A stretch of 64,000 nt of DNA. It comes from Buchnera aphidicola (Cinara curvipes). GTDB lineage: Bacteria > Pseudomonadota > Gammaproteobacteria > Enterobacterales > Enterobacteriaceae. This document shows, one piece after another, positions 21,663-60,046 of the stretch. The stretch covers positions 369,818 to 433,817 of the forward strand of contig NZ_LR217710.1 in assembly GCF_900698915.1 (NCBI RefSeq), read 5' to 3'. The notes beneath the pieces were generated by a model. The model saw only the letters and a program-made list of their open reading frames with translations. It was not told the DNA's origin and made no database searches. Position 1 is the first letter of the stretch. Every line of letters starts with the position of its first letter. The position numbers were made by a program, and so were the translations under genes.

Positions 21663-22021
21663 TCACCACTTAAAAATAAAATCAAATTTATTAATTTTTT
21701 TTTGAATACAAAAACTATTTAAAAATTTTACCGGTAATAAAAATTTATCATTATCTTTTAATCCTCTCTGATAAGCAGAATCTTTACAAAAAAAAAATCT
21801 TTTATATCATATAATGATAGAATCTTAAAAGAAAGAGAATAATTATGTAATTTAATTAAACTTGGTTTTTGATATTTCATTAATTGAAATACACCATCAT
21901 CAATAAAAAACAAAGAAATTTTATTACTAAATAAGGAAAAAGATAAAATAAAATCTAATCCTTCTCTACCTATACTATTTCCATATGGAGCTTTAGAAAA
22001 AACAAAAGCAATAGATTTCAT
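21663..22021 (-). CDS. tusC: Sulphur-relay protein TusC, frameshifted at an A10/T10 run
   Basis: TusC pairs with TusB and TusD in the sulphur relay for wobble-uridine thiolation. The literal frame from ATG 22021 stops at 21758 after 87 residues, ending in unrelated residues. The break is at a homopolymer (plus-strand A10, 21788-21797; T10 in the gene). With one more base the frame reads YDIKDFFFCKDSAYQRGL and continues to a TGA at 21663-21665. That gives 119 residues, the E. coli TusC length, with ERGL-like and C-terminal YDVILRF-like segments aligned. The N-terminal half (AFVFSKAPYG, GREGLD, FFIDDGVFQL) is well conserved. It may be rescued by transcriptional slippage, be a fresh inactivation, or be a read error. 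Confidence 0.88.
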
Positions 22022-39271: not shown

Positions 39272-40210
39272 TCATTTATTATATTCTATTACTTTTTTAA
39301 TTTTATTTATCAAAATATCTATTTGATTATCATTTATTAAGATGATATCTTTCCAATTATTTAACCAAGTTAATTGATGTTTAACTAATTTGCGGGTAGA
39401 TTTAATTGTATTATCAATCATTTCTTGATATGTACACTTATTTTTTAAATAAAACCACATTTGTCTATAACCAATACTATTAATAGACGGAAAAGAAGAA
39501 TTTAAATTCTTAATTTTATATAAATTACGTACTTCTTCTTCAAATCCATTGTTTAACATATTATAAAAACGTTTTTCTATTTTATTATATAAAATATCTT
39601 TTCTATATGGAATTAATCCAAACTGAAATATTTTATATGGTAACTTTACATGTATAGATTTAATTAACTTACTGCGTGAAAATCCTCCAGAAACAAAAAA
39701 TATTTCAACTGCACGTAAAACACGCTGAATATCATTCATATGAATTTTCTTACTAGAATCAGGATCAATTTTTTTTAAAATATCAAATAATTTTTTTTTT
39801 TTTTTTAAACATATTTCTTCAAAAATATATTTTCTAATTAATGGATTAGAAGGAGGTAAATAAGCAAATCCATTCAATAATAATTTAAAATAAAACATTG
39901 TTCCTCCAACTAACAAAGGAATTTTACCAAATTTTAAAATATTTTTTATTTCCTTAACAGAATCCTTATAAAAATCAACAGCTGAATAGATTTCTTTGGG
40001 TGATTTAATATTAATTAAACGATGCAAATTTTCTTTTAAATCTTTTTTATTTGGTTTATCTGTACCAATATCTAAACCTTTATATACTAATTTTGAATCT
40101 ACACTTAATAACTCTATTTCAGGAAATTTTTTTTTTATTTTTAACGCTAAAGAACTTTTTCCTACTGCTGTTGGACCCATTAGAAAAAATACAACTGATT
40201 TAATATTCAT
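39272..40210 (-). CDS. miaA: tRNA dimethylallyltransferase
   Basis: MiaA adds the isopentenyl group to A37 of tRNAs reading UNN codons. The P-loop is GPTAVGKSSLA (about 13-23). SVDSKLVYKGLDIGTDKP, GGTMFYFKLLLNG, MNDIQRVLRAVEIF and the C-terminal GYRQMWFYL and TRKLVKHQLTW complete the family pattern. The 312 residues match E. coli (316). An unbroken T16 run on the plus strand (39791-39806) encodes five Lys in frame, so this transcript is very prone to slippage. Confidence 0.96.
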   Translation of the reverse strand: MNIKSVVFFLMGPTAVGKSSLALKIKKKFPEIELLSVDSKLVYKGLDIGTDKPNKKDLKENLHRLINIKSPKEIYSAVDFYKDSVKEIKNILKFGKIPLLVGGTMFYFKLLLNGFAYLPPSNPLIRKYIFEEICLKKKKKLFDILKKIDPDSSKKIHMNDIQRVLRAVEIFFVSGGFSRSKLIKSIHVKLPYKIFQFGLIPYRKDILYNKIEKRFYNMLNNGFEEEVRNLYKIKNLNSSFPSINSIGYRQMWFYLKNKCTYQEMIDNTIKSTRKLVKHQLTWLNNWKDIILINDNQIDILINKIKKVIEYNK

Positions 40211-46511: not shown

Positions 46512-47405
46512 TTATTGCACAAAAAATGAATATTTCATTTTCGGGTTAGAATCTTTAGTAACAATTATAGAAGCTCTAAGAGCATATTGATTTACTTGAT
46601 CTATTTTTTCTGAATAAGAAGGTTCTAGGTCTGCCATTTTTGTTACTGCTAATTTGTACATACCTGGACCAATATTATCAATTTCATAAGCATAATGAAT
46701 ATTATAAGATTTTCTATTTTGAACTTCTGGATAACGTAAAGATAAATTTTTCCATGCTACTTCTAATATTTCAGGATGTAAGTATGTAGAAATTAATTGT
46801 TGTGATTTATAATCTGTAATAGAAGTTTGAAACTCATTAATTATATCAACAGCTTCAAAAGAAGGAATCATTTTTCCGTCTAAAAAAACCATTTTATCAT
46901 TTATATTTCTTAAAAATTTTTCTTCTAAAACACCTGTTTTAATTAATTTTCTAAATGATGCTTGTAATTTTTCTGATTCGCGAGTAGTTTTATCTGAAAA
47001 ATTAGAAGAATTTAAAATATTCCATTTAATATTATTTTTATTAAACACTTTTAAAAAAATATCCTGAATGCTATATTTTAAATTTTCATTTTGAGAGATA
47101 TTAAGAAAATCAGATTCACTCATTGGATTATCAAAATATTCTTTACTAGATACAGTATTAACAAAATTAGTATTTTTATTCTGCTCTAATGGCTTAGTAG
47201 TATCTTGATTAGAATAAACTATATTTTTCCTATCATATTCACTTTTAGGGATAATATGCGCCATGTATTCTTGATTAGATGTATTAACAATGGCAATATC
47301 AACATTTTTTAAACTTTCATTATGTAATATACGGACATTATCAACTTTTTTTATGATTTTTGAGTTAAGATTAAAATTAGATCTTATTAAAGAAACTGAT
47401 GACAT
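46512..47405 (-). CDS. Orphan protein of unknown function between fpr and dapF
   Basis: This gene codes for a 297-residue soluble-looking protein. It starts MSSVSLIRSNFNLN with AAAGGA upstream and ends YSFFVQ. I see no signal peptide, membrane segment, P-loop, Cys cluster or repeat. It has few poly-Lys runs and is richer in Ser, Asp, Glu and Gln than its neighbours, so its codon and amino-acid make-up stands out. Buchnera genomes are known to carry lineage-restricted unknown ORFs (named yba3/yba4) near here, and this may be one of them; that link rests on position only. No function is claimed. Confidence 0.8.
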   Translation of the reverse strand: MSSVSLIRSNFNLNSKIIKKVDNVRILHNESLKNVDIAIVNTSNQEYMAHIIPKSEYDRKNIVYSNQDTTKPLEQNKNTNFVNTVSSKEYFDNPMSESDFLNISQNENLKYSIQDIFLKVFNKNNIKWNILNSSNFSDKTTRESEKLQASFRKLIKTGVLEEKFLRNINDKMVFLDGKMIPSFEAVDIINEFQTSITDYKSQQLISTYLHPEILEVAWKNLSLRYPEVQNRKSYNIHYAYEIDNIGPGMYKLAVTKMADLEPSYSEKIDQVNQYALRASIIVTKDSNPKMKYSFFVQ

Positions 47406-47849: not shown

Positions 47850-48697
47850 TTAATATGTAATAATTCCATCATAAACATGAACAGCTTCCCCTGACATATA
47901 TAATGAATGTTCTAACACTCCATCCCAAAAAATTTTTAATTTACCTTTTAATAATTTTACAGTTACAGAATTATATAAAATTTTATTATTAATTCCTATA
48001 GCAACAGCAGCACAAGCACCACTACCACAAGCTTGTGTTTCACCAACATGTCTTTCATATACTCGTAATAAAATTTTTCTTTTTGAAATTATCTGCATAA
48101 ATCCAACATTAACCCCTTCAGGAAATAAAAAATATTTTGATATCTTAAAACCAATCTCTTGAACAGGAAAATTATCAATATTTTCTACCTGAATAACACA
48201 ATGAGGATTACCTAGAGATACAACACTAATTAAATATTTTCTTTTATCAATATAAATACTATAATATAACTGTGTATTTTTTTGTAAAAAGGGAATCTTT
48301 TTAGGTAAAAAAATTGGTTCACCCATATTTATTTTAAAAATATTTTTTACAACATGTTCTAAAAATAAATATCTATTTTTAGTACTAACACAAATTTTTT
48401 TTTTTCTAATTTTTCTTTTAATAAATAAGTAATATGCAATACATCGAGCACCATTTCCACATTGCTCAACTTCTTTACCGTTTGAATTAAAAATTCTATA
48501 ATGGAAATGAGCTTTTTTGGATACTGATTTTTGAATTATTAATAGTTGATCAAATCCAATACCTAAGAATCTATTTGACCATTTTTGTATTAATTTTGAA
48601 GAAAAAAAAAATTATATTTTGTAGAATCAATTAAAACAAAATCATTTCCTAAACCATGCATTTTAGAAAAAAAAATAGTGTTTTTTTTTAATAACAA
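47850..48697 (-). CDS. dapF: Diaminopimelate epimerase, frameshifted at an A10 run
   Basis: DapF turns LL-DAP into meso-DAP for lysine and peptidoglycan. Start is TTG 48697, 7 nt after GGAG; MHGLGNDFVLID follows. The literal frame ends at TAA soon after a T10 run in the gene (plus-strand A10, 48602-48611). With one extra T it reads YNFFFSSKLIQKW and then GIGFDQLLIIQ, CGNGARC (first catalytic Cys), GNPHCV, ETQACGSGACAAVA (second Cys) and AVHVYDG to 47850. That gives 282 residues (E. coli 274) with no other break. It may be rescued by slippage or be a read error; without rescue, lysine provisioning fails. Confidence 0.9.
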
Positions 48698-48784
48698 ATT
48701 AATTCTCCTTATATAAAAAAAACAAATGTTATAATCAAATTTAAAAGTAAACTATCCAATATAATATTTAATACTAGGGTCAAT

Positions 48785-49126
48785 ATGAATATATTATCAT
48801 TTAATAAAAAATTTAAGAAAACATTATTAATTATAGAAAATATAATAAATCAAAATGAAGAAAAAATAGATATAGATTATATATATTTAGAAAATATGAT
48901 AACTATAACATTTAAAAACAAAAAAAAAATTATCATTAATTCACAAGAATATTTAAAACAATTATGGATTGCTACATCAAATCAAGGATACCATTTAATA
49001 CTTAATAAAAATACTTGGAAATGTATTCGAACACAAAAAAAAATAGCAAACATTTTAGAACAAGAATTTTTAAATCAAACAAAAAATATAATATATTTTT
49101 CAGATTTAGACAATATTAAAGAATAA
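48785..49126 (+). CDS. cyaY: Frataxin-like protein CyaY
   Basis: CyaY binds iron and regulates IscS during Fe-S assembly. The core ITITFKNKKKIIINSQEYLKQLWIATSNQGYHL aligns with E. coli CyaY. The acidic ridge is partly retained in the N-terminal NEEKIDIDYIY segment. Length 113 (E. coli 106). It is divergent from dapF; cyaA and hemC, the E. coli neighbours, are missing. Confidence 0.93.
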   Translation: MNILSFNKKFKKTLLIIENIINQNEEKIDIDYIYLENMITITFKNKKKIIINSQEYLKQLWIATSNQGYHLILNKNTWKCIRTQKKIANILEQEFLNQTKNIIYFSDLDNIKE

Positions 49127-59515: not shown

Positions 59516-60046
59516 ATGAATTATTTTCATTTATTTCAATTACCTCAACAATTTGAAATAGATAAACAAATATTAATTAATACATTTTATGAATTACAAA
59601 AAAAATATCATCCAGATATGTGTAATAAAAAAATTCTTCATAAAAAAAATCAACTATCTATGGCAATTAAAATTAATCAAGGTTTTAATATACTAAATAA
59701 TAAATTTACTAGAGCAAATTATTTATTAAAAATATACAAAAAAAAATTTTCTTTTAAAGAGAATCATACTATTAATGAAAAAGAAATACTTTTAGAAAAA
59801 TTTAAACTATATGAAAAAATACAAAAAATAAAAAATAAACCAAATTCATATAAAAAAATAAATTTTTTTATTAAAAAAATTAAAAATAAATTATCATTTA
59901 ATTTCCAAAATTTTAATAAGAATATTAAAGAAAAAAAAATTAATTCTGCAAATAAAATATTTTTTCATATATCTTTTATCTATAAAATTTTACAAAAGTT
60001 AAAAAAAATAAAAAAAATAATGTATAAAAAAAAGGAAAAAAAATGA
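59516..60046 (+). CDS. hscB: J-domain co-chaperone HscB
   Basis: HscB delivers IscU to HscA. The start at ATG 59516 (MNYFHLFQLPQQFEID) matches the family. The frame extends 45 codons upstream to a GTG in the iscU hairpin, but that part is hydrophobic and non-homologous. The J-domain HPD is in KKYHPDMCNK. The C-terminal helical domain is lysine-rich and diverged. Length 176 (E. coli 171). Its TGA overlaps the hscA ATG (ATGA). Confidence 0.93.
   Translation: MNYFHLFQLPQQFEIDKQILINTFYELQKKYHPDMCNKKILHKKNQLSMAIKINQGFNILNNKFTRANYLLKIYKKKFSFKENHTINEKEILLEKFKLYEKIQKIKNKPNSYKKINFFIKKIKNKLSFNFQNFNKNIKEKKINSANKIFFHISFIYKILQKLKKIKKIMYKKKEKK

Follow-up and report, generated by a model that had tools for sequence, protein, structure and literature searches.

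The diaminopimelate epimerase gene (dapF) of Buchnera aphidicola (Cinara curvipes) is, to judge from its sequence, very probably functional even though its DNA lacks one base at a run of ten T. A fraction of its mRNAs probably gains one U by transcriptional slippage at this run, thereby encoding full-length DapF. The gene lies in a 64,000-nucleotide stretch of contig NZ_LR217710.1 (the window; Table 1). The same out-of-frame T10 occupies the same codon in 12 of 16 genomes of the window's genus, which rules out chance, and selection maintains the C-terminal part of the gene.

Table 1. Features of the two frame-disrupted genes in the window (window coordinates).
Feature	Position	Strand	Remarks
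dapF (diaminopimelate epimerase)	47850..48697	-	frame disruption of -1; likely start TTG 48697-48695; stop codon 47850-47852
AGGAG, probable ribosome-binding site of dapF	48705..48709	-	7 nt ahead of TTG; read from sequence
dapF N part, frame 0	48590..48697	-	leader, MHGLGNDF, FFF; ends at TAA 48592-48590
dapF T10 run	48602..48611	-	frame junction; A10 on plus strand; in-frame length minus one base
dapF C part	47850..48602	-	250 codons plus stop; carries CGNGARC and ACGSGACAAVA
Second long run in dapF	48395..48405	-	A11 in coding strand; in frame
tusC (sulfurtransferase TusC)	21663..22021	-	same -1 disruption as dapF, at T10
tusC T10 run	21788..21797	-	frame junction; out of frame

The reading frame of dapF changes exactly at the T10 run, and no lesion is found elsewhere in the gene. 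Read from ATG 48661 on the minus strand, one frame gives MHGLGNDFVLIDSTKYNFFFLQN ahead of a stop; frame 0 thus passes from MHGLGNDF to FFFLQN before its stop at 48592-48590, and the other frame (-1) runs from the last T of the T10 through FFFSSKLIQKW to the stop codon of the gene. The initial annotation had placed the switch precisely at this A10 run (48602-48611) and had given the gene 282 codons; both statements hold, the latter with a TTG start at 48697, while its term "poly(A)" is wrong for the coding strand, which has T10. The two parts that it assigned to different frames are matched separately and in order by the NCBIfam DapF model TIGR00652, the N part with 21.1 bits (model positions 2-26) and the C part with 220.1-222.3 bits (positions 27-269; curated cut-off 114.65). 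No second TIGR00652 match was found elsewhere in the window's genome, and dapF is single in 5/5 genomes tested, the window's own included. The C part aligns almost full length with solved DapF structures, best with 1bwz (E 4e-76), as do CGNGARC and ACGSGACAAVA, which we take to be the two catalytic cysteine motifs of DapF. An open in-frame leader of 12 codons (13 in G013) precedes the methionine of MHGLGNDF in all 16 genomes of the genus. The codon at the start position is TTG in the window and ATG in 11 of the 16; G007 and G006 have TTG, G012 has GTG, and G013 has TTG one codon earlier.

The 16 genomes of the comparison set appear to be Buchnera of the Cinara/Lachninae type. In the window's genome, the plasmids are most similar to those of Cinara Buchnera, with C. 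pseudotaxifoliae as the best match at 80% identity over 80% of the query and C. confinis at 75%. All 16 genomes possess dapF, with MHGLGNDF identical throughout. Twelve carry the out-of-frame T10 at the same site and in the same frame, three (G004, G010 and G014) have an in-frame T11, and in G009 the gene is in frame without a run. On a midpoint-rooted tree of eight neighbouring proteins with ultrafast bootstrap, nine T10 genomes form one clade (bootstrap 89), with subclades of three and six supported at 100 and 99, and the shifted allele has very probably been inherited by whole clades. The other T10 genomes, G012, G013 and G008, pair with the in-frame sisters G004, G010 and G014 (supports 84, 100 and 100). 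By parsimony, the frame state switched four times, the root being undecided; no dated Cinara phylogeny was found in the literature consulted. Outside the genus, in the loci read from some of the 198 family genomes, no locus with a recognised N part has a T run of at least ten at the dapF site; L026 has an in-frame T9 there and L062 an in-frame A10. The N part was unrecognisable in L028, L037, L050 and L061, and L064 and L074, both fragments, did not enter this reading.

The C part is intact in 16/16 genomes, at 249-250 codons, in agreement with the earlier claim that dapF has no other lesion. Its dN/dS is 0.11-0.32 over ten pairs of shifted genomes and 0.13-0.33 over four pairs with an in-frame member, the ratios of distant pairs being rough because their dS is close to saturation. 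The initial annotation had inferred purifying selection on both halves: the rates bear this out for the C part, and the N part gives dN/dS of 0.05-0.43 where defined, its 17 codons being insufficient for a rate test. Measured against eight pooled genes, the protein distance of dapF ranges from 1.52 to 1.99 for shifted pairs and from 1.42 to 1.74 where one member is in frame; the ranges overlap, with shifted pairs slightly higher. Unique amino-acid changes in the shifted and in-frame lineages of the four comparisons number 16/18, 29/17, 29/27 and 13/23 in dapF, alongside 162/151, 114/122, 258/192 and 138/158 in the pooled other genes. The second of these (G013 with 29, G010 with 17) has the excess in the shifted lineage, the fourth in the in-frame one, and the four lineage comparisons show no consistent acceleration of dapF in shifted lineages. 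A neutral simulation (substitution only, A+T 80%, scaled to a dS of 0.68 across the nine-genome clade, 300 runs) left 0/9 copies intact in 300/300 runs, with a mean of 14.6 stops per taxon. The earlier proposal that the gene works despite its shift is thus well supported by the shifted state in 12/16 genomes, the lack of further lesions and the constraint on the C part, and "broken", the word then applied to it, is the wrong term for an allele retained so widely.

A scan of the window for frame switches at runs of at least eight bases identified tusC, which lies between tusD and tusB/rpsL, as the sole other convincing case. The gene is shifted in 7/16 genomes and in frame in 9/16, the in-frame alleles having T11 in six genomes and, in three, T10 after a codon that does not end in T. 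From an in-frame root, the frame state of tusC switched four times by parsimony. The C part of tusC has only 41 codons, and the shifted pair G002/G015 has a dN of 0.083 and a dS of 0.099, so constraint is less sure here than for dapF. The hits at 21788 and 21695 both fall in the tusC/tusB stretch; those at 60026/60036 and 12563, presumably hscB/hscA and rpsC/rplP, were rejected as shifts because they look like ordinary adjoining genes. The scan also flagged 58297. A short ilvC ORF in G010 and G013 was likewise discarded as a shift, since tblastn finds one frame over its full length. In a second Buchnera genus, dapF is shifted in 2/11 genomes (G215 and G219; loci L071 and L072), the remainder of the gene being intact in both. 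The shift there lies about 90 bases beyond the T10 site, in an A tract with 10 A after a TCT or CCA codon, and a dapF tree of 10/11 genomes of that genus does not join the two as sisters. All 21 shifted alleles (12 of dapF, 7 of tusC and the 2 in G215 and G219) are one base short of frame.

In the mechanism that we favour, RNA polymerase would cross the T10 tract, and the U-rich RNA:DNA hybrid may slip. A fraction of transcripts would then carry one extra U and encode full-length DapF which, going by its family and pathway, would supply meso-diaminopimelate for lysine; the other transcripts would presumably yield a short dead peptide. Several features of dapF fit a homopolymer frameshift rescued by slippage: two frames of one gene meet at a lone indel within an A/T tract of at least nine bases, there is no further lesion, the C part is constrained, and the shift is retained across lineages. 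In Buchnera, according to the accessible text of a transcriptome study (PMC5574713), transcriptional insertions fall in homopolymers in 151/157 cases and deletions in 16/57; 80% of the insertions are single bases, and up to 11 nt their frequency grows exponentially as runs lengthen. The one-base deficit of every shifted allele has the direction that insertions by Buchnera RNA polymerase would correct; a deletion bias in replication could also account for this uniform deficit. Frameshifted endosymbiont genes are described, in the part of PMC5009743 available, as having 12-50% corrected transcripts. Slippage as the rescue, already proposed by the initial annotation, remains the best, if inferred, explanation; against it, the run also contains a slippery heptamer, and the transcriptome study, as far as its accessible text goes, reports no frame-restoring transcript error (PMC5574713). 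Slippage at the in-frame A11 within the C part should likewise ruin some dapF transcripts; this second run is A10 in G007 and G006 through a change in the neighbouring codon, with no shift.

If tracts of 10 and 11 both give mixed mRNA, a change between the two lengths may be cheap in evolution, a suggestion based on the at least four frame-state changes on the tree. One extension, which we regard as tentative and rather unlikely, is that the long T tract acts in these Buchnera as a length-insensitive element: with T10 roughly equivalent to T11, tract length would drift, and the share of slipped transcripts would hold DapF and TusC at a constant, low level. If true, this would amount to tolerance at the level of the genome, and possibly dosage control, instead of the mending of isolated accidents.

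Programmed -1 ribosomal frameshifting acts on heptamers of the form X XXY YYZ, and the same full-length protein would arise if the mRNA stayed U10 and the ribosome slipped back on U UUU UUU, a reading that we hold to be unlikely. As in such systems, a slippery heptamer lies in the right frame: all T10-shifted alleles, 12 of dapF and 7 of tusC, contain U UUU UUU in frame 0, and those of G215 and G219 contain A AAA AAA. The direction of all shifted alleles is one that a -1 ribosomal shift could correct, and in single-sequence folds of the shifted G000, G007, G006 and G001 a stem lies about 7 nt past the run, within the 5-9 nt expected of a stimulatory structure. Stems near the run are, however, predicted in the in-frame G009, G010 and G004 too, and the consensus hairpin begins about 21 nt downstream and is unchanged when in-frame genomes are included (-4.96 for T10, -5.04 for all). 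Neither single-sequence nor consensus folds revealed a stimulatory structure that tracks the shifted dapF alleles, a point of difference from programmed frameshifting, and inspection by eye found no Shine-Dalgarno-like stretch 10-14 nt upstream of the run. Seven U suffice for a ribosomal shift, yet the tract is interrupted in 0/19 shifted T alleles against 4/13 in-frame ones, counts that are not independent in that three of the four interrupted in-frame alleles belong to one clade. On the side against slippage, selection for an uninterrupted tract could not be demonstrated convincingly: for the 12 shifted genomes, the full set of invariant two-fold columns puts the chance at 0.03, and Phe columns for three codons (0.19) multiplied by the frequency of the preceding codon (180/428) put it at about 0.08; for the nine-genome clade, the first measure gives 0.07. 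The tract and structure arguments against ribosomal shifting are not decisive.

The remaining readings place the explanation in the DNA, in the data or in the fate of the protein. Buchnera cells are highly polyploid, and a minority of T11 genome copies might supply intact mRNA beneath a T10 consensus. Sister genomes one base apart at the dapF tract would accord with such mosaicism, as would the single-base indel polymorphism within Buchnera samples described in the accessible text of PMC3164680, but nine related genomes with a T10 consensus would require a permanently minor functional allele, which makes this reading improbable. That T11 was undercounted in sequencing or assembly, a read error that the initial annotation had itself allowed for, is more improbable still. 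Homopolymers are prone to error on some platforms, and exact 11-runs inside recognised ORFs are absent from the 20 kb stretches of G002, G012 and G011; against this, the state of the dapF tract follows the tree, and within such ORFs 11-runs occur in 13/16 assemblies and 10-runs in 16/16. Furthermore, G001 and G008 have an in-frame T11 at tusC but T10 at dapF, so these assemblies can call T11 in a similar context. In comparisons between close relatives, the share of runs of at least nine bases with unchanged length is 5/12, 8/10, 6/11, 5/10 and 5/12 outside recognised ORFs (the dapF run included) and 11/14, 9/10, 4/11, 7/13 and 8/14 inside them; the dapF run is constant in all five comparisons, like some other runs, so its constancy alone proves little. 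Loss of dapF, whether as a decaying pseudogene or through replacement of DapF by a partner or the host, is suggested by the disrupted frame and by the frequent interpretation of homopolymer indels in Buchnera as recent inactivations (PMC3164680, accessible text). We consider it extremely unlikely, given that 12 genomes share the shift without decay, with a C-part dN/dS of 0.11-0.32 and no consistent acceleration, and that the neutral simulation leaves no copy intact; in addition, the available text of PMC6908640 describes the Erwinia symbionts of Cinara as incapable of de novo synthesis of any essential amino acid. Classification as a pseudogene was rejected, neither further lesions nor relaxed constraint having been found. 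Just as hard to credit is a split protein, in which the N peptide and the C part are made separately, the latter from an internal start. Both parts are conserved, as this reading would expect, but the earliest ATG, GTG or TTG in the C frame, at 48326, would give 158 aa without CGNGARC, and the first-ATG ORF spans 158-189 aa in 12/12 shifted genomes.

Transcriptional slippage, which we prefer to these readings, has precedents in insect symbionts. Rescue of frameshifted endosymbiont genes by poly(A) slippage was described by Tamas et al. in 2008, as summarised in the accessible parts of PMC5009743, PMC3017870 and PMC3164680. Their cases, Buchnera itself among them, resemble the present one in combining a lone indel in a long A/T tract with an otherwise intact gene in an obligate insect symbiont. 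They differ in that cell-wall or histidine genes were affected there, whereas here the tract is T in the coding strand and lies in dapF and tusC, both known from DNA sequence. Wernegreen et al. (2010), as cited in the text available of PMC3017870, reported ancient Blochmannia frameshifts kept by selection, and the same source describes Blochmannia frameshifts common to species, with independent shifts or reversions. The dapF shift is similarly common to species with no detectable degradation. Unlike the Blochmannia cases, as far as that source describes them, it extends over 12/16 genomes, nine of them in one clade, and is accompanied by the parallel tusC case, in which some genomes have T10 and others T11. 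The dapF case is a further example of a known phenomenon, unusually broad and deep, with a parallel in tusC. Among the titles and abstract openings of the papers listed, no earlier description of a dapF or tusC shift in Buchnera was found.

The gene serves the supply of lysine, a nutrient that the aphid requires from its symbiont, and lysA is present in 16/16 genomes of the genus. Nearly all peptidoglycan genes have been lost in Lachninae Buchnera according to the accessible text of PMC9116674, which makes lysine a plausible reason for retaining dapF. So widely shared a shift is a natural experiment on whether slippage sustains function, set against the negative finding in the accessible text of the published transcriptome (PMC5574713), and the T10/T11 sister pairs (G012/G004, G013/G010 and G008/G014) allow direct comparison. 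It is also a warning against discarding frameshifted genes: such genes have been removed by script in symbiont annotation (PMC9116674, accessible text), a step by which dapF would go in 12/16 of these genomes.

Three further observations concern other parts of the window. In miaA (39272-40210, minus strand), an A/T run of 16 lies near 39791, and the aligned runs are 8 in G007 and 13 in G006. Adjoining dapF is cyaY (48785-49126, plus strand); tblastn searches of the 20 kb stretches found no match to it in G012, G004, G010 or G013 and only incomplete matches in G008 and G014. Downstream of dapF, an ORF of 297 aa (46512-47405, minus strand) has no NCBIfam match, and a similar ORF is found in 14/16 genomes of the genus.
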